Part shown: positions 9,017-21,597 of the stretch, piece by piece
How the letters are laid out: each line of letters opens with the position of its first letter
How positions within the stretch are numbered: the first letter of the stretch is position 1
Assembly (NCBI GenBank): GCA_012960315.1
Contig: DUBN01000090.1
Location: 1-52,142 of the forward strand
Origin: Acidimicrobiia bacterium
Lineage (GTDB): Bacteria; Actinomycetota; Acidimicrobiia; Acidimicrobiales; Poriferisodalaceae
Length of the DNA: 52,142 nt
Direction: 5' to 3'
Notes under the pieces: model-generated
Database searches by the model: none
Told to the model about the DNA's origin: nothing
Seen by the model: the letters and a program-made list of their open reading frames with translations, nothing else
Made by a program: the position numbers and the translations under genes

Positions 9017-9364
9017 TTACCCGCCAACAATGAAGCGCTGGTGGGTTCCCTGAGACACCAAGGTGTCCATATGGCTGACCTTTACGTTGAACACCAGCCG
9101 CTTACGGTCGACTTCGGCTAGCTCAGCATCAATTACGACACTTTCTCCCGAAGCGGCAGCCGCTTCGTGGCTTACGCACACATGAATACCTACTGTGGTT
9201 TGTCCCTCATCGAGATGAGGTTGGACGCCAAACAAACAGGTGCCTTCAATAAGTCGGACCATATCTGGGGTTGACAAAACCTTGTTTGGCAGGTGCGGCG
9301 GCGACATGTCGTCCGTCACTTCGACTGTGTCGCTGAAAAGGAGGCCGACTTGAAGTTCACTCAT
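9017..9364 (-). CDS. Hotdog-fold thioesterase, fluoroacetyl-CoA thioesterase (FlK)-like
   Basis: This 115-residue protein matches the FlK-like family in layout: a variable start, then VLSTPDMVRLIEGTC, PHLDEGQTTVGIHVCVSH, and a C-terminal TLVSQGTHQRFIV. The Thr, Glu and His expected in the catalytic set of the family fall at STPDM, LIEG and the VSH segment. It should hydrolyse a short acyl-CoA. The ATG at 9364 is chosen because longer readings run into the preceding gene. It begins ten bases after the lactonase gene stop, in a tight operon, and probably releases an acid from a CoA product of the pathway. Confidence 0.85.
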   Translation of the reverse strand: MSELQVGLLFSDTVEVTDDMSPPHLPNKVLSTPDMVRLIEGTCLFGVQPHLDEGQTTVGIHVCVSHEAAAASGESVVIDAELAEVDRKRLVFNVKVSHMDTLVSQGTHQRFIVGG

Positions 9365-9374
9365 GTTTTCGAGG

Positions 9375-10349
9375 CTAGTACCCACCAAGATTTTGTGATT
9401 GCAGAAACCTTCGTGGTGTGTCCACCAACATCGTTTCGATCTGTGACTCGGTGACTCCAGCCTCGAGGAGAGCGGGTATGACGTCTTTGCTGATGTGCAA
9501 ATAGTGCCAGTTGGGTAAAGGAGCAAGCGGCACTTCACCTTCGATCCAATCGATATAGCAGGAAGCATCGTGACTTAATACCAGTTGATCAGCGTGGCCC
9601 CGCCGACAGAGCTCGGCAACGACTTGAACTCGTTGCTCTGTGGTGAGGTAGCCGTCGATGCCGAATCTGTCCATGCCGAGGATGCTTCCAGCGTCAAGAA
9701 GCTTTTGTAGGTAATCAAGGTCTTGAGAGTCTCCGCAGTGTCCGATCACCACGCGACTCAGATCGACTCCTTCTTCGGCAAAGATTTGTTGTTGATCAAG
9801 CCCTCGTTCTAGTTCGGCGTTTGTGTGGGTTGTGATGGGGCAACCTGTTTCTCGATGGGCTTGAGCGCACGCGCGAAGCACCCGCTCGACGTCAGGGGTG
9901 AGCCCAGGCTTGTCGGTCGCGCATTTTATGACTCCGGCTTTAACTCCGGTATCGGCGAACCCATGAACAATGTCTTGGACAAAGTGAGCTGTGAGGGCAT
10001 CAGTCTTGTTGGCGGCGCGTCTCCGGTAATAATGGGGAAGTTCGTTAAATGTGTAGAGGCCGGTCGCGCAGATGATCTTGAGATCGATTCGGTCCGCGAC
10101 AGCTTGGATTCGCGGGATATAGCGACCGAGTCCAATCGCTGTTGGGTCGACGATGGAGTCGATGCCGTTTGCCTTTAGTTCGGTGAGCCGGTCGACGGCG
10201 TCATCAATCCGAACCTGTTCTTCGCCCCACTCCGTGGGGTAGTTCTGCTGAATTTCGGTAGATATGACGAAAACATGTTCATGCATCAGTACCCGACCCA
10301 GCTCCGAAGCCGAAATGGGTCCAGTCGCTGTTTCAACGGCGGATTTCAT
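9375..10349 (-). CDS. Phosphotriesterase-family metal hydrolase, probable lactonase
   Basis: The 324-residue product carries the complete binuclear metal set of the phosphotriesterase family: HEH at residues 23-25, the Lys that is carboxylated (GVIKCATDK, about 142), His in ITTHTNAE (about 175), His in IGHCGDS (about 204) and Asp in LSHDAS (about 261). Family members in catabolic settings are usually lactonases rather than phosphotriesterases. It overlaps the end of the linalool-dehydratase-like gene by four bases, so translation is coupled. A lactone substrate would fit a Baeyer-Villiger-type monooxygenase encoded nearby, which is an inference. Confidence 0.88.
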   Translation of the reverse strand: MKSAVETATGPISASELGRVLMHEHVFVISTEIQQNYPTEWGEEQVRIDDAVDRLTELKANGIDSIVDPTAIGLGRYIPRIQAVADRIDLKIICATGLYTFNELPHYYRRRAANKTDALTAHFVQDIVHGFADTGVKAGVIKCATDKPGLTPDVERVLRACAQAHRETGCPITTHTNAELERGLDQQQIFAEEGVDLSRVVIGHCGDSQDLDYLQKLLDAGSILGMDRFGIDGYLTTEQRVQVVAELCRRGHADQLVLSHDASCYIDWIEGEVPLAPLPNWHYLHISKDVIPALLEAGVTESQIETMLVDTPRRFLQSQNLGGY

Positions 10350-11851
10350 GTACCTAGTGTTTCACTTAAAGCGGTCAACGTGAATGACGACCCATCAGCG
10401 ACCAACTCAATCTCTGTTGCGCCTCCGACGACATCCCAGGAAGTCAATGTTTCGTCGCTACTTTGAAGAATCCATTCGCCATCGGTGGGTAGACGGCGGA
10501 TAGTCATCGTTGTCCGAGTGCCGTTCGTGGCGCCGTTGCATGGGTCAGCCGCTAGATGCAGCGACCCTTCATCCCAGTGGGCTTGACTCATAGCGACTCG
10601 CGGAAAGTCGACTCCCTCCACGCAAGGTTGGGAGTGCTTCGCGAGATCAGGATTTTCGAATATTTGAGTCCACGCTCCGGGCTGGCAGACCCAGCCGGCC
10701 ATAACTCTGGCGTTGAATTGTCCCCGAGGGTGAAGTTCATTGAGGCCGAAACCGAAGGTGAACTCACCGGAGTCCGGGTTCAACGTGGGTTCGAAGAAAG
10801 TGTCGCATGCTTCCCACAGTTTCTCTTTGATGGCTCTATCGGCGAACTCACCTGTAAACCAGGCCAACATGAGACCATCGCGAGCGTCAGCCATGGCAAC
10901 GTCACTATCTCCCAATAGGCCCATCGCCGTGGCGCCGAACTTCCAAGCTGACTCCGCGACTTCCCTTCGTTGGGGAGCGAGATACCAAGTCGGTGCAATT
11001 AAACCGACCGGAGTTCGAAGATGTTCATCTACAACGGGATCGTAATAAAGGTCCATAGCGACGGCTTCATCTCCGTCCCACGTTATGTAGTTGTCTGACG
11101 CGTACTCCCACCAGTGATCGAAAGCACCATGGTGGTTTGTGTCGAGAAGTTGATCGTGAAGTCTCAGACCGAGACCGGCGCCGGCCAGTCAGTAAGGCCA
11201 TATTTTCGTATTTTCACAATGACAACCCATTTGGCGCCCGTGCCATTGTTCAGCGAGATGGCTCATCACTCCAGAATGAGTCCACGTATAGGCGTGTTCG
11301 CCGTCGCGAATCATTTCAAAGGGGCTGTTCCACTTTGGATCATTTGATACATAACGATGCAGGCCTAGAAGTAAACCGAAGAAGCCTTTGAAGAAGAGCA
11401 TTCCATCGGCCGCCACAGGATCCATCTGAACCCCGTAGGGTTCGATTCCGTTAGCGGTCCACCCAGGCACGTCATAGTCGCCCCACAAAGCTTCTGGAAT
11501 CAGCGGCCGATATTTGTCGGGATAGCTGCTGCGTTCAGGGTCCGGGCCGAACTGGGTCATCCAATCTTCGGCTGCCCACCATGAAGTGTGACGTTCGACT
11601 AATTCGTCGAGCACACGTGCGTAGACCTCACTCCACGCTGGTGTTCGATCGCTCATCAACGCCATGGCGTAGGCAGAATCAATGAGATCAAAACGGTGGA
11701 AAGACGTCATAGGAGGACCAGAGACGTTGTCCCAATGAGGATGCGGATGCCCGTCTCGACTCCAGTTATCTGGCGTTGTGGCTTTTCGATGCAAATAGCG
11801 GAGCCAACCAAGCGAACGCCGGTCAAGCGCGTCGTGCGTCCTAACCGTCAT
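10346..11851 (-). CDS. Linalool dehydratase/isomerase-family protein with in-frame TGA, candidate selenoprotein
   Basis: One frame runs from the ATG at 11851 to the stop at 10346-10348, 501 codons, with a single TGA at 11189-11191 (codon 221). Both sides belong to the linalool dehydratase/isomerase (alpha6/alpha6 barrel) family: W40-D41 near the start, MLFFKGFFGLLLGL (151-164), CENTKIWPY (212-220), then LAGAGLGLRLHD and a C-terminal domain. As I recall, the Castellaniella enzyme uses Cys171 and Cys180, nine apart, at its active site. Here Cys212 is followed nine residues later by the TGA, where homologs carry Cys. A hairpin resembling a bacterial SECIS lies just downstream. The gene overlaps both neighbours (11 and 4 bases). 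The likely role is dehydration, hydration or isomerisation of an alkenol or similar substrate. Without selenocysteine insertion it would be a nonsense-broken gene of 220 residues. Confidence 0.72.
11160..11176 (-). promoter_or_regulatory. Candidate bacterial SECIS hairpin
   Basis: On the minus strand, 12 bases after the TGA, GGTCTC (11176-11171) pairs with GAGACT (11165-11160) through five Watson-Crick pairs and one G-T pair, around a GGTCT loop (11170-11166). The loop begins 18 bases after the TGA. The E. coli fdhF element, as I remember it, has the same GGUCU apical sequence at the same spacing. A G at the start of the loop is a general feature of such elements. Part of the match (a Gly-Leu codon pair) may be fixed by protein conservation, and the bulged U known from E. 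coli is not evident. Confidence 0.55.
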
Positions 11852-12869
11852 TATTTCGCCTTTGCCTAGAAGAGCTATTTGTCAACCGCTCTAGGTGATA
11901 ACGCTTGATCTCCGGAGTTTGACCTTGTACCAGCAAAAAGAGCGACTCTCTTGCTAGGCGTTGCGCTTGGTGTTCAACAAAAAGCGCCGAGCCCCCAGTG
12001 CTGGCCACAAGAGCTGAGGTGGCGCGCACACAAAGATCTCCGAGACGAGCGCGAGCCTCCGGTAATTGATCCGCCCTAGCGGCGTCAATCTGTTGCCTCG
12101 CTTCTGATAGCTGATCATCCAACAGACTCGGTCCCAAAAGACGCATTGCGCGTGCAGCGACGCCAAGAGGGTTGGAACCATTCGATCGTAATCCCCGCCG
12201 GTATCGCTCTTTCCAGTCATTCAACTGTTCCACCGAAGTGACGGCCTTTGTTGCCACAGGATGCCTATCGAAACACAATTCAACCGTCACGGCTGAATCA
12301 ATTGCTGTCAGCGAAAGTCTGCGGCTCGTAAGAGTTTCGCAATCTCTAGCATCAACCATGGCCCAGACAATTGAGTCAGCCCAACGAGCTGCTGTCAGGA
12401 CGACATCTATGTGACCCCACCCGGTTACGAACGGGGCCGTTCCCGAGAACAGCCACCCGTTGCTGCAGGGGTCAGCTTGAAGCATCGGAGAGCCTGGTCG
12501 ATTCAAATGAGCGAATGCGACTCCGCCTCGCGCTTCGCCAGTCGCAAGAGCTTCGGCCCATTGATCTCGCACCGGCCCCGTGGTTTCGACTGCCGCTCGG
12601 CTAGGGCCAGCGTGTTGGGCCCACACGAAACTTGTAGTGAGACATCCACCAGCTAAAGCTTCAAGAACAGCCCACTGAGTTTCAGCTGAAGCACCCAGAC
12701 CTCCGAACTCAATTGGTGAAAATAGCCCGTGAAAACCGGCACCACAGACGAGGTCAAGTGCTGCTGTGGGCACTTCCCCTTTCCCATCGACTGCGAGTGC
12801 ACCCGGGAAAAGGTTGGCGTCGGCTAGCTCAGCGGCCCTCGCAACGATGTCGCCATCGATTTCGCTCAT
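11841..12869 (-). CDS. Acyl-CoA dehydrogenase-like flavoprotein
   Basis: The 342-residue protein follows the acyl-CoA dehydrogenase plan: an N-terminal helical domain (VCGAGFHGLFSPIEFGGLGAS), a middle beta domain with SGTAPFVTGWGHIDVVLTAARW, and a C-terminal helical bundle ending in LARESLFLLVQGQTPEIKRY. It is shorter than the usual 380 residues, and the canonical Glu base position is not obvious, so it may be an FAD protein with a different substrate or an accessory member. It overlaps the preceding dehydrogenase gene by four bases and the following linalool-dehydratase-like gene by 11, so the three are translationally coupled. Confidence 0.8.
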   Translation of the reverse strand: MSEIDGDIVARAAELADANLFPGALAVDGKGEVPTAALDLVCGAGFHGLFSPIEFGGLGASAETQWAVLEALAGGCLTTSFVWAQHAGPSRAAVETTGPVRDQWAEALATGEARGGVAFAHLNRPGSPMLQADPCSNGWLFSGTAPFVTGWGHIDVVLTAARWADSIVWAMVDARDCETLTSRRLSLTAIDSAVTVELCFDRHPVATKAVTSVEQLNDWKERYRRGLRSNGSNPLGVAARAMRLLGPSLLDDQLSEARQQIDAARADQLPEARARLGDLCVRATSALVASTGGSALFVEHQAQRLARESLFLLVQGQTPEIKRYHLERLTNSSSRQRRNNDG

Positions 12870-13750
12870 TCGTCGTCAAACAGTTCGTAGACGACTGGCG
12901 AATAGAAGTGCCCCATTCCCCTGTCCACAATTTCAGAGAAACGTTCTCGAACAAGACGCGCACCTTGGGCATCCACACCGACTTGACTTGCAAGATCTAA
13001 CGCGTAATCGAGATCTTTGAGGGAGTACGTCGTAGGAAATCGGTCCGTGGGGTAGTCGCCACTTGTCATAAAGGAGCCGTGGCGCCGAAGAGCGAAACTA
13101 TCGGCCGACCCTTGACCCAATAAATCGAATACGCGATTACGCGGCACTCCGGCACGCGTCGCAATCGCCATGGCCTCAGCAAGAGCGGAAACATTTTCGA
13201 ATAAGACCATGTTGTTCATCAGCTTCATCACAGTCCCGGTCCCGACAGGACCACAGTATGCAACGTCGGAGCCCATATAACCGAGCCAGGGTGCTATCTG
13301 GTCGAAGATCTCCTCAGATGCTCCTACTGTGATTGAAAGTGTCCCATCGTGGGCGTTCGGAACGCCGCGAGCGACTGGAGCGTCCGCAAAGTGAGCGCCC
13401 TTAGCAGCGAGCGCTTCAGAAACGTCTAAGTTCACTCGAACTGTCGCTGTCGTGCAATCAACCACGATTTGTCCGGCCCTAGCACGATCACAGAGCCCGC
13501 CTTTGGCGAGGCTAATTGACCGGGCTTGTTCTTCTCCAGGCACACAGATAAAGACGATGTCAGCGCGAGATATGTCAGCTAAATCGTTGGCGGCGACGCT
13601 CCCTGAGTTGACCGCCGCCTGAACAGCGTTCGAATCAAGATCGTACGCGAGCACGGGAACCGGTGACTTGCTAGCTAAATTTGTGCACATCGGTCCCCCC
13701 ATCGCTCCAAGACCCACGAACGCGATTAGCTCGACCGAAGAATCAGACAT
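12866..13750 (-). CDS. 3-Hydroxyisobutyrate dehydrogenase-like NAD(P) oxidoreductase
   Basis: From the ATG at 13750 the protein is 294 residues, the normal family length. The Rossmann motif is FVGLGAMGGPMCTNLA (about residues 10-25), the substrate segment is DAPVARGVPNAHDGTLSI, and the catalytic Lys lies in GTVMKLMNNMVLFEN. Such beta-hydroxyacid dehydrogenases oxidise 3-hydroxy acids, or reduce tartronate semialdehyde or succinic semialdehyde. A longer open reading from 13918 overlaps the divergent dioxygenase and is rejected. It is the first gene of the minus-strand series and overlaps the next by four bases (ATGA). Its promoter must share the short gap to 13815. Confidence 0.88.
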   Translation of the reverse strand: MSDSSVELIAFVGLGAMGGPMCTNLASKSPVPVLAYDLDSNAVQAAVNSGSVAANDLADISRADIVFICVPGEEQARSISLAKGGLCDRARAGQIVVDCTTATVRVNLDVSEALAAKGAHFADAPVARGVPNAHDGTLSITVGASEEIFDQIAPWLGYMGSDVAYCGPVGTGTVMKLMNNMVLFENVSALAEAMAIATRAGVPRNRVFDLLGQGSADSFALRRHGSFMTSGDYPTDRFPTTYSLKDLDYALDLASQVGVDAQGARLVRERFSEIVDRGMGHFYSPVVYELFDDE

Positions 13751-13814
13751 AAGAGGATTCTCGCTCACAGCACGTACCCGATGCGGACATCTAGAGTGAA
13801 AGGGGGCGGTGCAC

Positions 13815-14969
13815 ATGCAGACAGCAGAACGAAAATCTGAATGGGGTAACTCCGAATTCCGAGAATATTGTGCTGAAGGTAAGAAAAGAGCTCTCGAGCT
13901 CGGGAATAGAGGACCCATTCGATTTTCGTCCGACGGCCAGCTTGCCTCTGAGATCCTAGAGGCGTACGCGCGCTGCGGATTTTATGTATTCGAGAATGTC
14001 CTTGGTGAAGACGAGTTAGAAGAATGTCGCTCTGAAATTGACGAGTTACTGCAGCGAGCTCCTTGGCCTCATCGGGACTCAAAGACAGATCGACAAGGCC
14101 GAGAGGCTCTTGGATTGGACCTCGCCATCAACCCATGGATCATGACTAGGCCGCTAAGTGACCCCGTGGGAGGCACAACTGAGAACAACGGTCGACACCC
14201 AGTAAAAATGTACGAACCTGAGCCCGCTGCGGACAGCCCCATACACGTTCCGTACTTGGTTGTCGGTTGTCTGCAGCTACTGCCGTCGTTTCTACGGATC
14301 TTCGGTCACCCCGACATCTTGCGAGTTGCTGAAGTCATAAATGGCCCAGACTTCACGCCCTTTACAGAAGTGCTCTTTGTTAAAGAACCTGAGCTAGGGC
14401 CCTCGGTCTCGTGGCATCAAGATGGCCAAATCCATTGGGATCATCCCGACTGGAACTCAAACATTCATGGGTTCAATGTGCAGGTGCAGCTTTATGGAAG
14501 TACCCCAGCAAATGGAGTTTGGGTACTTCCCGGTACACACACTGAAGGCAAAGTAGATATCGCGGATCGAATATCAAAAAATCATGGCTCCGATTGGTTC
14601 GAAGACGCTGTCCCGCTCGTCTGTGACCCGGGAGACGCGTTCATCACTAATCGACAGACAGTCCACGGCTCGTTTCCGAATACCTCAAAAGATCGGCGAA
14701 TAACAGTCAATTTTGGATTCCATCGATATTCGTCGGTGATTGGTCAAACCGGAAAGTTAACCGGCGACGGAAATGTGTACACCGAGGACTACATTCGGCA
14801 GCGCTGCCGTTGCATCCCCTTGGCAATAGACGCTCGAGCTCAACGTTTTCGTGAAGAAGAGCCGTATAGCTATCAGCCGTTTGTGGGGTTAGAGGACCAA
14901 CATCGCTACGAACCTGACACCGCACGAGATATCTTGACCAACTACAACCTCCAAGATTTAGGTATTTAA
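13815..14969 (+). CDS. Phytanoyl-CoA dioxygenase (PhyH) family protein
   Basis: The product is about 384 residues. The Fe(II) site is visible as H-x-D in SWHQDGQIHWDHPDW, with the distal His in TVHGSFPNTSKDRRITVNFG, where the following Arg binds 2-oxoglutarate. FYVFENVLGEDELEECRSEI is the usual N-terminal helix. It should hydroxylate an unactivated carbon using O2 and 2-oxoglutarate. The start is an ATG at 13815 with AGGGGG eight bases before it; a GTG two codons earlier is possible. It is divergent from the dehydrogenase gene by 64 bp, and the monooxygenase gene begins two bases after its stop. Confidence 0.9.
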   Translation: MQTAERKSEWGNSEFREYCAEGKKRALELGNRGPIRFSSDGQLASEILEAYARCGFYVFENVLGEDELEECRSEIDELLQRAPWPHRDSKTDRQGREALGLDLAINPWIMTRPLSDPVGGTTENNGRHPVKMYEPEPAADSPIHVPYLVVGCLQLLPSFLRIFGHPDILRVAEVINGPDFTPFTEVLFVKEPELGPSVSWHQDGQIHWDHPDWNSNIHGFNVQVQLYGSTPANGVWVLPGTHTEGKVDIADRISKNHGSDWFEDAVPLVCDPGDAFITNRQTVHGSFPNTSKDRRITVNFGFHRYSSVIGQTGKLTGDGNVYTEDYIRQRCRCIPLAIDARAQRFREEEPYSYQPFVGLEDQHRYEPDTARDILTNYNLQDLGI

Positions 14970-14971
14970 AA

Positions 14972-16891
14972 ATGAACCTGGACCCTGATCAACAAATCTT
15001 CGCCGACGCAATCGAAGTAGCGAACATTCCAACGCTTCTCATGGTGATAGTCCAACTCACAGGCGAACTCGAATGGTTGGAGGCGCCATACACCCCGAAA
15101 CGACAACCAGGCCTTGGCGATAACGACAGTGGGGGCCTAGACCCTCGACACCAACGCGAGGTTCGAGAAGCTGCGCTTGAAGCGATTTTGGCTTGGCGCG
15201 CCGGACGCGCTGTGGCACTTCCCGAGCCTGACGAAGAACTCATAGTACGCATGCTGAGCGTCTCGATGGCAGAGCCCGTTCCATCTGAATACGGACAATT
15301 CACAGCGGCTCAGCTAGGCCAAGTGAAGTTCTTGGATCACGAACCTGTGAACGCGCCGGCAGATTTCAAAGTTTTAGTTATTGGTGCCGGCGTTTCAGGT
15401 CTGTGCGCGGCCATCAATCTCCAGATGCTTGGCATCAACTTCGAAGTAGTAGAGCGGAACTCAACTGTCGGCGGCGTCTGGTGGGAAAACAGTTACCCGG
15501 GAGCCGGCGTTGATACACCCAACCATCTGTACTCGTATTCCTTCGCTCCGTTCGACTGGAAAAAATATTTTTGTCTCCGCGACGAACTTCATGCATATCT
15601 CGAACACGTATGTGACAACTTTGAAGTACGCGACAACATTCGCTTCGAGACTGGTGTGGAACGCATCGAATACCAAGAGTCGCGACAGAAATGGTTAGTG
15701 ACACTTCGCCTACCCGATGGCACATTGCAACAAACCGAGGCCAACGTCGTTATTAGTGCAACCGGAATCTTTAATCCGCCCGTTTTCCCCGACATCGACG
15801 GACTCGACGAATGGAAAGGCGAAAAATGGCACACAGCGCGATGGCCTAAGGATGCCGATTTGGCAGGGAAGCGTGTTGCGATCATTGGGAACGGTGCGAG
15901 CTGCATGCAGATCGGTCCAGAAATTCAAGATGAGGTCGAGTCCCTGACGATCTTCCAAAGGTCCGTTCACTGGGCTGCGCCGTTTGAACAATTCCGAAAA
16001 GAAGTCCCCGACCCGATACGCGCCCTCCTACGCGAGGTCCCCCTATATCGAAACTGGTACCGCGTTCGGTTGGGATGGACTTTTAACGACCGCATTCACC
16101 CAGCGTTACAAAAAGACCCGAATTGGGGGCATCCTGAGCGATCGCTAAATGCACAAAATGATGCACATAGAGCATATTTCACTCAATACGTCGTCGATGA
16201 ATTAGGCGATAAAGCCCCTGAGTTACTTGAACGCGTACTTCCCACATACCCGCCCTTCGGAAAGCGAATGCTCATGGACAACGGGTGGTACCGCATGCTC
16301 CGTAATCCGAAAGTCACCTTGGTAGATAACCACGTCGAACGAATTGAGCATGACCGTCTCCGCACTGAAGAAGGCACTGAATACGAAGCTGATGTGCTCT
16401 TGTTGGCGACAGGATTTGACGTGCTGAACTTCATCACGACATACGAAGCTGTAGGACGCTCTGGTGCGTCGTTGGCGGATCAATGGGAACAAGACAATGC
16501 TAAGGCGTACCTCGGTACTGTCGTGCCTGACTTCCCGAACTTATTTACCTTGTATGGGCCGAATCTTCAGCCAGGCCACGGCGGGAGTCTTATCTTCGTT
16601 GTGGAGATGCAAGTCAGGTACATCATGGACATGATCCAAAAAATGCTTCGAGACAAAATCGGGGCAGTTGAGATCCGCAAAGAAGTACACGACGCCTACA
16701 ACGACAAGGTTGATCTGGCCCATGAACAAATGGTGTGGGTGCACCCGGGAATGACCTCTTATTACCGCAACGAGCGCGGACGAATCGTCGTGAATTCGCC
16801 ATGGAGGAACGTGGATTTCTATCAGATGACGCGAGAAGCCAACTTAGGGGAATATTTAGCTGAACCAGTGGGCGAACTAATCGCCGATTAG
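14972..16891 (+). CDS. Baeyer-Villiger-type flavin monooxygenase, HAPMO-like with N-terminal extension
   Basis: The 639-residue protein has an N-terminal extension of about 130 residues, as in 4-hydroxyacetophenone monooxygenase, before the FAD Rossmann motif GAGVSG (138-143). The Baeyer-Villiger fingerprint appears as WKGEKWHTARWP (281-292, with Trp in the usual Phe place), followed by the NADPH motif GNGAS (306-310). It should insert oxygen next to a ketone to give an ester or lactone. It follows the PhyH gene with a two-base gap, so both are co-expressed. The substrate is not readable. A lactonase-type hydrolase in the divergent operon would suit its product. Confidence 0.9.
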   Translation: MNLDPDQQIFADAIEVANIPTLLMVIVQLTGELEWLEAPYTPKRQPGLGDNDSGGLDPRHQREVREAALEAILAWRAGRAVALPEPDEELIVRMLSVSMAEPVPSEYGQFTAAQLGQVKFLDHEPVNAPADFKVLVIGAGVSGLCAAINLQMLGINFEVVERNSTVGGVWWENSYPGAGVDTPNHLYSYSFAPFDWKKYFCLRDELHAYLEHVCDNFEVRDNIRFETGVERIEYQESRQKWLVTLRLPDGTLQQTEANVVISATGIFNPPVFPDIDGLDEWKGEKWHTARWPKDADLAGKRVAIIGNGASCMQIGPEIQDEVESLTIFQRSVHWAAPFEQFRKEVPDPIRALLREVPLYRNWYRVRLGWTFNDRIHPALQKDPNWGHPERSLNAQNDAHRAYFTQYVVDELGDKAPELLERVLPTYPPFGKRMLMDNGWYRMLRNPKVTLVDNHVERIEHDRLRTEEGTEYEADVLLLATGFDVLNFITTYEAVGRSGASLADQWEQDNAKAYLGTVVPDFPNLFTLYGPNLQPGHGGSLIFVVEMQVRYIMDMIQKMLRDKIGAVEIRKEVHDAYNDKVDLAHEQMVWVHPGMTSYYRNERGRIVVNSPWRNVDFYQMTREANLGEYLAEPVGELIAD

Positions 16892-17892
16892 TCGCTCAAT
16901 TCGCTGCTAACAGCAGCGAGCACGCTCTTAATATCAGTTTCGCTCACATCTAAGTGCACAACCATCCGGCTGTGATTACCCGACCAGCGTGTTTGCACTC
17001 CTCGCCGCAAAAGGCCTTGTTCCAGTTCAGGTACCTTCTGAGAGGTACGAACGAACACCATGTTGGTGTTCTGAGCTTCAAGTTCAATGCCATCGATCCG
17101 AGCTAAACCCTCGGCCAGCAGTTGCGCATTCTCGTGGTCTTCGGCGAGACGTTCAATGTGGTTATCAAGTGCGTGGCGCCCTGCCGCAGCCAGCAGTCCC
17201 ACTTGACGCATCGCGCCCCCCAACATTTTTCGCCACTTCCTTGCCTCATCTATTAGCGATGCCGAGCCCACTAGCACTGACCCAACCGGTGCACCGAGTC
17301 CTTTGGAAAGGCAAACAGAAACACTATGGAAGGGCGCTGCAATACCTGCGGGGGGTACTTCCAAAGCCACTGATGCGTTCCAAAGCCTCGCTCCGTCAAG
17401 GTGGTAACCGAGGTTATGTCGGTCGGCTAGTTCTCGACCAGCTTTGAGGTCCTCCAAGCCGATCACTTTTCCGTCCGTGGTGTTTTCAAGGCAAAGCAGA
17501 CGAGTGCGCGCAAAATGTGCATCGTCAGGTTTGATTGCTGCCTCAGCGGCTCCGAGATCGAGCATCCCCGAATCAAGCATCGGAACGGTCTGAGGTTGAA
17601 TACTGCCGAGCACTGCGGCGCCGCCTCCCTCAAACATGTATGTATGCGCGTGATCACCGACCAGATATTCGTCACCCCGCTGGCAATGGGCCATGAGGGC
17701 ACACAAATTTGATTGGGTTCCCGACGAAACAAACACAGCAGCTTCTTTGCCGAGGAGTTCGGCAGTATGGCTCTCGAGGTTGCGTACTGTCGGGTCATCC
17801 CCAAACACGTCATCGCCCACTTCAGCTGTTGCCATTGCGCGACGCATCGCTGGAGTTGGTCTGGAAACGGTGTCAGATCTTAAGTCGATCAC
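16888..17892 (-). CDS. ltaE: Low-specificity L-threonine aldolase
   Basis: The 334-residue PLP enzyme has the family opening MIDLRSDTVSRPTPAMRRAM and the segment VGDDVFGDDPTV. HLDGARLWNASVAL holds the Asp and Arg of the cofactor site, and CLSKGLGAPVGSV holds the Schiff-base Lys. It cleaves L-threonine or allo-threonine to glycine and acetaldehyde, and tolerates other beta-hydroxy amino acids. Its end overlaps the end of the convergent monooxygenase gene by four bases. It is a single gene with its upstream end next to a decayed dioxygenase. Confidence 0.92.
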   Translation of the reverse strand: MIDLRSDTVSRPTPAMRRAMATAEVGDDVFGDDPTVRNLESHTAELLGKEAAVFVSSGTQSNLCALMAHCQRGDEYLVGDHAHTYMFEGGGAAVLGSIQPQTVPMLDSGMLDLGAAEAAIKPDDAHFARTRLLCLENTTDGKVIGLEDLKAGRELADRHNLGYHLDGARLWNASVALEVPPAGIAAPFHSVSVCLSKGLGAPVGSVLVGSASLIDEARKWRKMLGGAMRQVGLLAAAGRHALDNHIERLAEDHENAQLLAEGLARIDGIELEAQNTNMVFVRTSQKVPELEQGLLRRGVQTRWSGNHSRMVVHLDVSETDIKSVLAAVSSELSD

Positions 17893-17960
17893 CCTCTTAA
17901 TCTGCCACGTAAATGAACATAGACCTAGCCTGAATCTATGAACGCCATCACTGTTGCCCG

Positions 17961-18318
17961 ATGACCCCTAGAACCGGGGCGGAAATTGAAGAGTAAACCG
18001 TGGTGAAGATCCCAGCGACCAACCGGTTGAGGAAAGTCGAGACGCCAGGCTCAAACAGCGGGTCATTATCTTTCGCGACCAGGAACTTCCCACGAACAAC
18101 ACATAGCTTTCGCCGCCCGCTTCGGTGAACTTCACAGCCACCCCACGGCGCCCCGCCACCATCAACACGCTGAAGTGTTAGTCATACACGCGAACGAAAA
18201 CTCTCGCTATGTCGCCAGCGATGTGGGGTAACAGCTGTGTGCAACATTTAGCGACATGGGATTATTTTCCTGCAACCCGTCACAGTTACAGAGTGACTAT
18301 GAGCGGAGTGAAGCCTAC
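17961..18318 (+). pseudogene. Decayed TauD/TfdA-family dioxygenase fragment
   Basis: Pieces of a TauD-type 2-oxoglutarate dioxygenase can be read in shifting frames: TPRTGAEIE after an ATG at 17961, then in another frame DQPVEES...RLKQRVIIFRDQELPTN (about 18017-18097), then after a shift near 18097-18102 QHIAFAARFGELHSHP and HAEVLVIHANENSRYVASDV (to about 18228). A stop follows at 18229-18231, where intact enzymes have the iron-binding H-x-D. The 3' half of the gene is missing. Remaining text (FSDMGLFSCNP) ends at the convergent carboxyltransferase gene. It is a clear pseudogene. Confidence 0.75.
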
Positions 18319-19920
18319 TTAAGGGCGCACTGCACGTTTAGGGCGATTAGCTAATTCCGCCAACTTGGGTTGAGCTAACTTCACGAACCGGCACGCTAAA
18401 GCTCGCGTTTCACGTGGATCAATGAGGTCCACTACATCTCCCTTGTGCGCGGCCTTAAAGGGAGACCGAAGCCGAAGAAGTCTCTCCTCGATCGCTTCGC
18501 GGTGAGCAGCCGGGTCGTCAGCCGCTTCGATTTCTCGACGATACGCAGCGGCGACGCCACCTTCGATAGGAATGCCACCCCACTCACCCGATGGCCAACC
18601 GAAACGCAAGTTAATGCCATTGGGTAAGCCAATGGAGTTAGGAGCATCAGCAGCGACTCCATAACTCTTGCGGACCATGAACTCAATCTTTGGCACCTGA
18701 CACTCGGCGGATGCGATGAGCGCGCGAGCACCGCGCCGCATGGTGGCTATGCGTTCGGCATGTGACCCCAACATAAAGCCAGGCATGTCAAGGAAAATCA
18801 GAAGGGGCAGGTTAAAACTGTCGCAAAGATCCAAGAAATGGGTGTACTTGTCCGCAGCGTTTCCATCCATCGCACCCGCTTTACTCATCGGATCGCTGCC
18901 AATTACCCCAACTGACCAACCATCCATTCGCGCAAAACCAGTGATGATTCCACTGGCGTAGAGCTTCCTCATCTCGAAGAAATCGCCGTTATCAACGACA
19001 TGGCGAATCAAAGCACGGGCGTCATATCCCTGCCGCCGATTCGTAGGAATTATCTCCAATAATTCTTGTGGCCGACGTTCGGGGTCGTCGCCAGTGTCGA
19101 CCCGCTGAGCGACCTCTCCCACTGTGTTTGGAAGGTAGGAAATGAAGTCGCGGATCTGCTGGAAAGCATCTTCTTCATCCTCAGCCACGTTGTCGATCTG
19201 GCCACTCTGCACGACATGCATCTCCCAGCCGCCAAGCTCTTCTTTAGAAAGCTTCTCACCGATCGCGCGCTCAACGACAGGTGGCCCAGAAGGGAAAATC
19301 TGAGATCTTCCCTTAATCATCACCGTGAAATGAGACAACAGCGCTGCGGCAGCTGGCCACCCGGCAACTGACCCTAAAATTGCTGCAGCCACTGGAACCT
19401 TGCCAAGAAGTTCTACCCCTTGGTGCCAGAGATCACCCTGGGGCAGACCCATATGTCCATCTTGCTCGTCCTGCTTGGATGAATGCCCTACACCTTCGCG
19501 GAGCTGCACGTAGGGGATCCCATATTGCAACGCCAGCGGCTGGGCAAAATGATGTGGCAACTTGTGAACATCGTGAGGGCTTCCCCCGGAAATAGTGAAG
19601 TCATCACCACCGACCGACACAGGGCGACCCGAAATTTCTCCCAGGCCCATCACGTAGCCCCCCGGCGAGAACTCAACCAAGTTCCCGTCGGCGTCATAAT
19701 CGGCCGCGCCCACTAAATGGCCCATTTCCAGAAATGAACCCGGATCGCAAAACTTTTCCATCCGTTCGCGAACCGTGTAACGGCCGCCGTCATGCTGTCG
19801 CTTAACCCGATCTGTTCCACCCATTTCGTCGGCAAGGCCTTTGACGTACTCGACGTCGGCAATGGCTTTTAACCAACCCATACCGGGCTTCCAAAATTCT
19901 CGATTGTGGTCTACGGGCAC
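18319..19920 (-). CDS. Acyl-CoA carboxylase, carboxyltransferase (beta) subunit
   Basis: The 533-residue protein has the two crotonase-like halves of biotin-dependent carboxyltransferases. The N-terminal half has RYTVRERMEKFCDPGSFLEMG and VSVGGDDFTISGGSP; the C-terminal half has LPLLIFLDMPGFMLGSHAE with the oxyanion glycines and RFGWPSGEWGGIPIEGGV. It would move CO2 from biotin to an acyl-CoA (propionyl-, methylcrotonyl- or similar). No biotin carboxylase/carrier subunit lies in the window. It starts with GTG at 19920, three bases after the amidohydrolase stop, with AAGG eight bases upstream, so the pair is an operon. Confidence 0.9.
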   Translation of the reverse strand: MPVDHNREFWKPGMGWLKAIADVEYVKGLADEMGGTDRVKRQHDGGRYTVRERMEKFCDPGSFLEMGHLVGAADYDADGNLVEFSPGGYVMGLGEISGRPVSVGGDDFTISGGSPHDVHKLPHHFAQPLALQYGIPYVQLREGVGHSSKQDEQDGHMGLPQGDLWHQGVELLGKVPVAAAILGSVAGWPAAAALLSHFTVMIKGRSQIFPSGPPVVERAIGEKLSKEELGGWEMHVVQSGQIDNVAEDEEDAFQQIRDFISYLPNTVGEVAQRVDTGDDPERRPQELLEIIPTNRRQGYDARALIRHVVDNGDFFEMRKLYASGIITGFARMDGWSVGVIGSDPMSKAGAMDGNAADKYTHFLDLCDSFNLPLLIFLDMPGFMLGSHAERIATMRRGARALIASAECQVPKIEFMVRKSYGVAADAPNSIGLPNGINLRFGWPSGEWGGIPIEGGVAAAYRREIEAADDPAAHREAIEERLLRLRSPFKAAHKGDVVDLIDPRETRALACRFVKLAQPKLAELANRPKRAVRP

Positions 19921-19923
19921 TTG

Positions 19924-21597
19924 TTACGCCTTGCCGTGGCGAAGCAACCTGCCGGGGAGCGCGGAGCCCGCGGAGACAGAGTCTTCTCCGTTCTGCCTAA
20001 TGACGGTCCCATTCACTACTACCGCGTCGATGCCCTTGGCATCCGAAACCAACCGGTCAGCTCCCGCTGGGAGGTCATACACCCGCCGTTTACCTTCGTG
20101 ACCCACGTTCTCCATATCGAACACGACAACGTCGGCCCACCCACCATCTTTTAAGGTGCCGCGATCTTCAATCCCAAATACTTGCGCAGGTCGTTGCGTA
20201 AGCATGTGAACTGCTTGCTCGAGATCAAAACTTTTTCTCTCGCGAACAAATGTTGAGAGAAACTCTGTGGAATATTTAGCGTCACAAAGCTGACTTGCGT
20301 GAGCACCCGCATCAGAAAGACCGATGACTGTGGTTGGATCATGCAAAAGCTCATCGATCTCGTTCCGGTCATGATTGACCACATCTTGAACTATGCGCAT
20401 GTCCAAATCTGCGTCTAGGGCCATGTCAAGCATCACATCGACGGGGTCCTGACCTAACTCGTCTGCTAACTCCTGAACGTTCTTACCTTCCATCGCTGGA
20501 TCTGGTGGGAACCAAGTAATCTCAGTTCGCGCCCAGCGGTCGCCAATCTTGCCGCCATTACCAGCTTTTTCTTTGAACTGTTCGCGCCAGTCGCGGTCAG
20601 CGTAGTAAGCCTTTCGTCCGTCTATGTCGCTTTGGGCTACGGGCTGAAACACTCGCATCCCCTCGTAGATGAACGGCGCCTTCCAACTCATTTCAAACTG
20701 GATTGGTTGGACTGCCACCTGAGGGAATACCGGAAGCCCGCGCTCAGCTAGTGCGTGGGCTTTCTCAACATCTTTGAGGTGGCTTCCTGGACCAACAGTG
20801 CTTGCCAATAGCGCGGTCCAGCTCACATTTGCACCAGTGGTTTCTGCAATGCGAGCGAATTCGTCGTGGCTTAAGCCGCGACCTTGGGTCGCTTGCATGA
20901 TTCCGCCAACGTCGCCGAGCGCCTGAGCGATCTCAATTATTTCTTCAGAGGTAGCGAGACGACTAGGAACCGGCCGTCCCTCGTATCCAACATGAGTGTT
21001 GGCCCTGCTCGTGGCGAACCCTAAGGCGCCTGCTTCTAGAGCTTCAGTAACCAGTTCGCGTTGTCGAGCGATTTCCTCTTCAGTTGCTTCACGCTCGGTC
21101 GCTTCTTCACCCAGTACATACATGCGAAGGGCTGTGTGCCCAATCATTGCTGCCATGTTGACTGCGCACCCATTGGCGTCCAGAGCATCGAGGTACTCAG
21201 GAAAAGTTTCAAAACCCCAGTCGCCTAATCCGGCCCGTAAGGCGTCAACACTCATCCCCTCGACGTTCTCCAATGTTCGCATGATCAAATCCCGGTGTTC
21301 GGGGCGGGTCGGTGCAACAGAGAAACCACAGTTGCCCATGACGATCGTCGTGACCCCGTGCCATGGAGAACAACTAACTAATGGGTCCCAAAGCACTTGA
21401 GCGTCATAGTGGGTGTGAATATCAACGAAACCAGGCGCAACGATGCGTCCCGTAGCGTCAATCGTTCGTTGAGCCTCTGCGGGTGCGCCGCCCATCGCGA
21501 CAATGCGACCATCCTTTATTCCTAAGTCGCCTAAATATCGTGCGGCTCCTGTGCCATCAACGATTGTGCCGCCCGTGATCTTGAGGTCGTAAGACAT
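19924..21597 (-). CDS. N-acyl-D-amino-acid deacylase-like amidohydrolase
   Basis: The 557-residue protein has the D-aminoacylase pattern: a small N-terminal beta domain (YDLKITGGTIVDGTGA), the metal motif VDIHTHYDAQVLWDP (about residues 58-72), GVTTIVMGNCGFSVAP with the bridging Cys, and a late GLSDAGAHASQLCD where Asp is catalytic. Homologs remove acyl groups from N-acyl-D-amino acids or act on related amides and dihydro-ring compounds. AAGGGGA precedes the ATG. The carboxyltransferase gene follows after three bases, suggesting a common catabolic route, but the substrate is unknown. Confidence 0.9.
   Translation of the reverse strand: MSYDLKITGGTIVDGTGAARYLGDLGIKDGRIVAMGGAPAEAQRTIDATGRIVAPGFVDIHTHYDAQVLWDPLVSCSPWHGVTTIVMGNCGFSVAPTRPEHRDLIMRTLENVEGMSVDALRAGLGDWGFETFPEYLDALDANGCAVNMAAMIGHTALRMYVLGEEATEREATEEEIARQRELVTEALEAGALGFATSRANTHVGYEGRPVPSRLATSEEIIEIAQALGDVGGIMQATQGRGLSHDEFARIAETTGANVSWTALLASTVGPGSHLKDVEKAHALAERGLPVFPQVAVQPIQFEMSWKAPFIYEGMRVFQPVAQSDIDGRKAYYADRDWREQFKEKAGNGGKIGDRWARTEITWFPPDPAMEGKNVQELADELGQDPVDVMLDMALDADLDMRIVQDVVNHDRNEIDELLHDPTTVIGLSDAGAHASQLCDAKYSTEFLSTFVRERKSFDLEQAVHMLTQRPAQVFGIEDRGTLKDGGWADVVVFDMENVGHEGKRRVYDLPAGADRLVSDAKGIDAVVVNGTVIRQNGEDSVSAGSALPGRLLRHGKA

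Follow-up and report, generated by a model that had tools for sequence, protein, structure and literature searches.

The window analysed here is a stretch of 52,142 nucleotides, positions 1-52,142 of contig DUBN01000090.1 in assembly GCA_012960315.1, a draft genome of an Acidimicrobiia bacterium (2.8 Mb, 96.6% complete). It contains a run of minus-strand genes, one of them an Ldi-family gene with a TGA within its frame, next to a divergent pair of genes on the plus strand. The features are as follows.

12866..13918, minus strand: 3-hydroxyisobutyrate dehydrogenase-like (beta-hydroxyacid dehydrogenase) gene; Pfam NAD_binding_2/NAD_binding_11; syntenic; the true start may lie further in
11841..12869, minus strand: acyl-CoA dehydrogenase-like gene; Pfam Acyl-CoA_dh_N; overlaps the start of the selenoprotein gene (putative operon); syntenic in close relatives
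10346..11851, minus strand: predicted Ldi-family selenoprotein gene; 501 residues with Sec221; terminal TGA at 10346-10348
11216..11218, minus strand: Cys212 codon; position of LDI Cys171; invariant C/U column
11189..11191, minus strand: in-frame UGA, predicted to be read as Sec221; position of LDI Cys180; conserved TGA, TGC/TGT in Cys forms
9375..10349, minus strand: phosphotriesterase/lactonase-family hydrolase gene; Pfam PTE, 346.6 bits; syntenic
9017..9568, minus strand: FlK-type (hot-dog) thioesterase gene; Pfam FlK, 97.2 bits; syntenic; start uncertain, overlaps the previous gene
13809..14969, plus strand: PhyH-type dioxygenase gene; Pfam PhyH; divergent; mostly kept in close relatives
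14972..16891, plus strand: FMO/Baeyer-Villiger-type flavin monooxygenase gene; FMO-like, NCBIfam PtlE below cut-off; mostly kept in close relatives

Read on its own strand, the Ldi-family gene runs from an ATG through 220 codons to a TGA at codon 221, then through 280 more codons to its terminal TGA. Apart from codon 221 the frame is fully open, with no other stop or frameshift. Cys212 lies nine residues ahead of the TGA, within HCENTKIWPY-TGA-LAGAGLGL. The upstream gene, ending at 11841, runs into the start of this one, whose terminal TGA in turn shares bases with the start codon (ATG) of the gene at 9375-10349. The original prediction for this DNA had placed the gene correctly at 10346-11851 but had omitted the strand, which is minus; its reading of a single TGA at 11189-11191 in a 501-codon frame, and of start/stop overlaps with the neighbours on both sides, agrees with ours. 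No second copy of the gene was found in the source genome.

Beyond the PhyH and Baeyer-Villiger-type genes, the 13809-21597 part of the window holds threonine aldolase, carboxyl transferase and amidohydrolase genes, and most of this set adjoins the selenoprotein gene in close relatives. In the source genome's own family the gene lies among catabolic genes, a setting that fits the breakdown of an alkenol or terpenoid-like compound, or of some cyclic or branched one, without naming it. Outside the close relatives the catabolic cluster is not kept and no shared partner gene was found, so the distant neighbourhoods gave no substrate.

TGA221 is kept in about 40 homologous loci of 49-92% identity, Myxococcota genomes included. 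It is conserved across genomes of the same genus, of the same family and of other families; the relatives compared were mostly titled as Acidimicrobiales/Acidimicrobiaceae MAGs, and nearly all genomes were MAGs. The full-length homologs read in the order all share this TGA codon or, as in three genomes, replace it by Cys; L072 is the single exception. TGA is also found at this codon in L091, from the same phylum but outside the order. L061 comes from a Myxococcales-titled MAG; in the class of that MAG three genomes have a TGA homolog, two of which (L097, L099) were read at the codon. Eight homologs carry Cys at the TGA position: L034, L037 and L040 in the order, all with TGC, and L100-L104 in the Myxococcota, with TGC or TGT. 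The gene has an in-frame UGA that aligns with Cys in homologs and is itself kept in several species, the pattern sought in selenoproteins.

The exception, L072 (G040:C20), is a distant homolog with Ser and His at the two Cys/Sec positions (HSENTKVWPEHLAMAGLGLL), in a genome that has tRNA-Sec and SelA; its catalysis has possibly been changed or lost. In the second phylum (L097-L104) Sec and Cys versions both occur, and the Cys versions are of a distinct type (GPHCENTKVWPYCLSAAGLGLQ) without the SECIS codons. A second TGA, at codon 490-493 in L023 and L024, was considered as a further Sec codon and set aside as probably an ordinary stop.

Purifying selection extends beyond TGA221: in a same-genus pair dN/dS is 0.080 upstream of the TGA and 0.096 downstream, and in the other estimable pairs it lies between 0.04 and 0.30. 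A sequencing error, or a nonsense mutation in a decaying gene, usually shows itself as a single in-frame stop, but here either is scarcely credible, given an identical TGA in two phyla and in dozens of assemblies that come from separate studies, no further stops or frameshifts, and a downstream dN/dS well under 1.

The source genome has a tRNA-Sec (65.1 bits, above the Rfam cut-off; ARAGORN call SeC(tca)), SelB (284 bits) and SelA (396 bits) adjacent on contig C58, and SelD (370 bits), the four components looked for in the host of a bacterial selenoprotein. SelD carries an in-frame TGA of its own (GAGUACK), as does an FdhA-like gene (NRTUHAP), so that, with the Ldi gene, at least three selenoprotein genes are present. 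The two others lie at G000:C4:3866-4801 (SelD) and G000:C45:61160-61723 (FdhA-like).

In a first set of genomes tRNA-Sec and SelA were present in 27 of 27 TGA genomes, and neither was found in the three Cys/Cys genomes (Fisher p 2.5e-4, kinship ignored). A second set had tRNA-Sec in 8 of 11 TGA genomes, which brings the tRNA-Sec tally to 35/38 TGA genomes versus 0/3 Cys genomes (p 0.002). The three MAGs in which a TGA homolog but no tRNA-Sec was found (L058/G763, L049/G768 and L091/G625) are probably incomplete or mis-binned; completeness is 84% for G625. The MAG of L058 carries the title Gammaproteobacteria.

Downstream of the UGA lies a selenocysteine insertion signal (SECIS), a feature that the original prediction had not sought.

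11160..11176, minus strand: bacterial SECIS stem-loop GGUCUC-GGUCU-GAGACU; 6 bp; apical loop 11166-11170; 18 nt after the UGA

Among the 157 degenerate codons conserved in the gene family, synonymous change is most restricted at the five codons 228, 227, 229, 230 and 222 (z from -15 to -9, where the others average -0.9). CTC-GGT-CTG in the hairpin is identical in 33 of 33 sequences, despite the six codons available for Leu and the four for Gly. All 174 of 174 stem cells are paired (29 distinct sequences), and the single pair that is free to vary shows covariation, alternating C-G with U-A through a U-G intermediate. Of the Sec rows, 40/40 (36 distinct, four being duplicates of the same assembly) have the exact GGUCU hairpin, against 0/3 of the Cys rows from the order. 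The hairpin codons have drifted in the Cys forms of the Myxococcota, for example to TTG GGC CTC CAG, where Gln replaces Arg230.

Published bSECIS limits are G at the first two loop positions, a distance of 16-37 nt after the UGA, a stem of 4-16 bp and an energy of -7.5 kcal/mol (PMC13188914). The hairpin of the Ldi gene (GGUCU, 18 nt, 6 bp) is within those for loop, spacing and stem. As an isolated 17-nt stem it has -6.5 kcal/mol here, which misses the energy limit, while the C-G version has -8.6 and meets it. Folded in isolation, the 37-nt stretch from the source genome has as its MFE structure a competing hairpin in which the UGA takes part; the 5' half of that stem would be covered by a ribosome whose A site holds the UGA. 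MFE z-scores downstream of the UGA were unremarkable, because Cys-coding homologs are similarly GC-rich. Chance alone yields a hairpin of this general kind in 7% of synonymous shuffles of the gene, and one follows 13% of its codons, so that finding one in a single gene would be weak evidence. The specific version, GGUCU at 18 nt, appears in 0.8%. The synonymous-site constraint and the contrast between Sec and Cys forms were the informative tests.

Recoding of TGA to Trp or Gly, genome-wide or in this gene, would account for the open frame and for nothing more, and can practically be discounted, since the homologs align Cys and never Trp or Gly at codon 221, the Ldi gene and its neighbours terminate in TGA, and the full Sec machinery and a SECIS are present. 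TGA221 might also be a true stop that divides the gene into two polypeptides, the second starting at an in-frame ATG at 11056. This is very unlikely, if slightly less so than recoding: residues 222-265, ahead of that ATG, include the highly conserved GAGLGLRLHD and the constrained hairpin, and the Cys forms run continuous through the same region.

Machinery, conservation, Cys pairing, SECIS and selection are thus five agreeing lines in favour of TGA221 as a Sec codon. During translation SelB with Sec-tRNA would bind the GGUCU hairpin 18 nt past UGA221, and the UGA would be read as selenocysteine to give a protein of 501 residues. Selenium is almost certainly incorporated at residue 221. The original prediction, that Sec takes the place of an active-site Cys, is strongly supported. 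It had named several ways to check itself, and the computational ones all went in its favour: Cys aligns with the TGA in the eight homologs listed above, the sister species keep the TGA with signs of decay absent, and selA, selB, selD and tRNA-Sec are all in the genome. It had also excluded genome-wide recoding, rightly, TGA being the terminal stop of the Ldi gene and its neighbours.

Pfam PF18566 (Ldi) is the sole Pfam family that matches the protein (36.5 bits against a gathering cut-off of 26.1), and 30 of 30 homologs match it; none of the NCBIfam models (June 2026) do. A phmmer search of the single protein against PDB gave chance hits only, and an alignment profile was needed. An AlphaFold (AF2) model built from 30 sequences (pLDDT 85.1, pTM 0.90) matches LDI 5g1u with Z 32.8 and rmsd 2.6 over 324 residues. 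LDI entries score Z 32-33, and the next folds, the (alpha/alpha)6 barrels of GH105, GH76 and an epimerase, reach Z 18.7 at most.

The profile alignment pairs GCHCENTKIWPYU with GIVCEPDNYFVQC, so that Cys212 corresponds to LDI Cys171 (the Cys of CEP) and Sec221 to LDI Cys180 (the Cys of VQCNS). The Cys171/Cys180 pair named in the original prediction thus matches Cys212 and TGA221 column for column. The two active-site Cys positions nine residues apart that go with Ldi membership are filled by Cys212 and Sec221, and both are kept as C or U throughout the Sec clade and its Cys forms. The N-terminal part, including the region of LDI Asp38/39 and Tyr44/45, has no sequence alignment to LDI. As judged from sequence and model the gene product is an Ldi family member, from which the identity of a linalool dehydratase does not follow.

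Some homologs have TGA at both 212 and 221 (twelve rows, eleven distinct; GCHUENTKIWPFULAGAGLGL).

Double-TGA loci, codons 212-231: L031, L032, L033, L035, L038, L039, L041, L043, L044, L045, L047

In the tree these intermingle with Cys212/Sec221 members within one well-supported clade, to which the same-family genomes G184 and G132 also belong. The source gene falls into the second large Sec clade, and the Cys/Cys forms branch off separately. For the double-Sec genes RNAalifold predicts a pair of hairpins in tandem. One is the canonical SECIS belonging to UGA221; the other, an 8-bp stem that follows UGA212, encloses UGA221 in its loop and lacks a GGU loop. Codon 224, which contributes to this second stem, is GGA in 11 of 11 double-Sec genes.

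The overall explanation, which we hold to be very probable, is a cytoplasmic selenoprotein of the Ldi fold in which UGA221 is read as Sec. Sec221 would stand in for the second active-site Cys (LDI Cys180), near Cys212 (LDI Cys171). Sec has a pKa near 5, and the selenolate surpasses Cys both as nucleophile and as leaving group; Sec221 would thus be largely selenolate at neutral pH. Given Sec, we favour with modest confidence that Sec221 and residue 212 form a catalytic pair, acting as nucleophile or as acid/base, in LDI-type hydration, dehydration or isomerisation of an alkenol/terpenoid-like substrate. In LDI itself, where the same two cysteines are also numbered 170 and 179, both are essential and must be reduced, Ala and Ser variants being inactive, and the enzyme is oxygen-sensitive (PMC6600392). 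Acid/base and covalent thioterpene mechanisms have both been proposed for it, and calculations disfavoured the covalent one (PMC6600392).

The main rival is that Sec221 and Cys/Sec212 form a redox pair, as a selenenylsulfide or diselenide, in an oxidoreductase or redox-regulated protein on the Ldi scaffold. Redox proteins are the majority of known selenoproteins (PMC13188914), a dozen homologs have Sec at both positions, and the LDI catalytic His is not kept; the oxygen sensitivity of LDI and its need for reduced Cys point the same way. Yet the protein has neither a motif of the CxxU/UxxC type nor a thioredoxin fold, its (alpha/alpha)6 barrel resembles that of LDI and has the Cys pair where LDI has its active site, and a redox partner gene is absent from the conserved cluster. 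We regard a redox pair as possible but doubtful.

Within the preferred reading of an LDI-type catalytic pair, a more tentative proposal is that selenolate, with Sec for one or both Cys, carries out redox-neutral C-O/C=C chemistry on an unactivated alkene or alkenol. It would act as nucleophile or acid/base, possibly through a seleno-ether intermediate. If this is true, Sec would be used outside redox chemistry, and the double-Sec members would have a Sec-x8-Sec active site.

The original prediction knew of no selenoprotein in the Ldi family, and we have come across none. Ldi/PF18566 or linalool dehydratase is absent from the 119 prokaryotic selenoprotein families of a May 2026 catalogue (PMC13188914), and Ldi is not among the nine new families of deep-Sep. 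A literature search, with supplements, subscription papers and raw NCBI annotations outside its range, found nothing that joins linalool dehydratase and selenocysteine. With the hypothetical protein GOS_A of the GOS survey (PMC2398784) left out of the comparison, we class this as a new selenoprotein family, the selenium form of the Ldi family. It spans two phyla, and some of its members have Sec at both active-site positions. Gene callers that take TGA as a stop would truncate or split such genes, so the family is easily missed.

Research on Ldi enzymes aims at the production of alkenes and alcohols from terpenes, and it has been debated whether their Cys mechanism is covalent or non-covalent. 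The natural Cys/Cys, Cys/Sec and Sec/Sec versions offer a ready comparison for this debate.

Several known systems can be set beside the Ldi selenoprotein. The formate dehydrogenase alpha subunit (FdhA), a classic bacterial selenoprotein in which Sec ligates Mo/W, is unrelated to it as a protein. The FdhA-like gene of the same genome nevertheless has the same GGUCU loop, 18-nt spacing and 6-bp stem, and the SECIS of E. coli fdhF likewise has a GGUCU loop. In common with the 119 catalogued families (PMC13188914) are the UGA/Cys pairs, the SECIS and the presence of SelA, SelB and tRNA-Sec.

The linalool isomerase (Lis) of Thauera linaloolentis and the LDI-like membrane-anchored proteins (grouped as L086-L094, of which L091 appears separately as a TGA locus) share the Ldi domain and a Cys pair nine residues apart. 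The catalytic part of Lis faces the cytoplasm (PMC4791888). The membrane-anchored proteins found have Cys only, most with a long N-terminal extension, whereas the Sec protein is soluble-looking and has no extension.

LDI (LinD) of Castellaniella defragrans (EC 4.2.1.127; PDB 5G1U/5HLR), which interconverts myrcene, linalool and geraniol, has the fold, the Pfam family and the CE-x7-C/U pair in common with the Sec protein, at about 15% identity. The assignment to the linalool dehydratase/isomerase family in the original prediction stands as regards the Pfam Ldi match and the fold, but not as regards several LDI hallmarks. Phe157 is at the position of the catalytic His128/129 (KGF for KGH), so LDI chemistry cannot be assumed. 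The first Cys of the Sec protein is residue 210, so the capping disulfide Cys48-Cys101 of LDI is absent. LDI is periplasmic, whereas no signal peptide is apparent here, MTVRTHDALDRRSLGWLRYL having by eye no hydrophobic N-terminal stretch. The Sec protein also has an extra, strand-rich C-terminal part. In the active site itself, it would differ from LDI in having Sec for Cys180, and some homologs in having Sec for Cys171 too.
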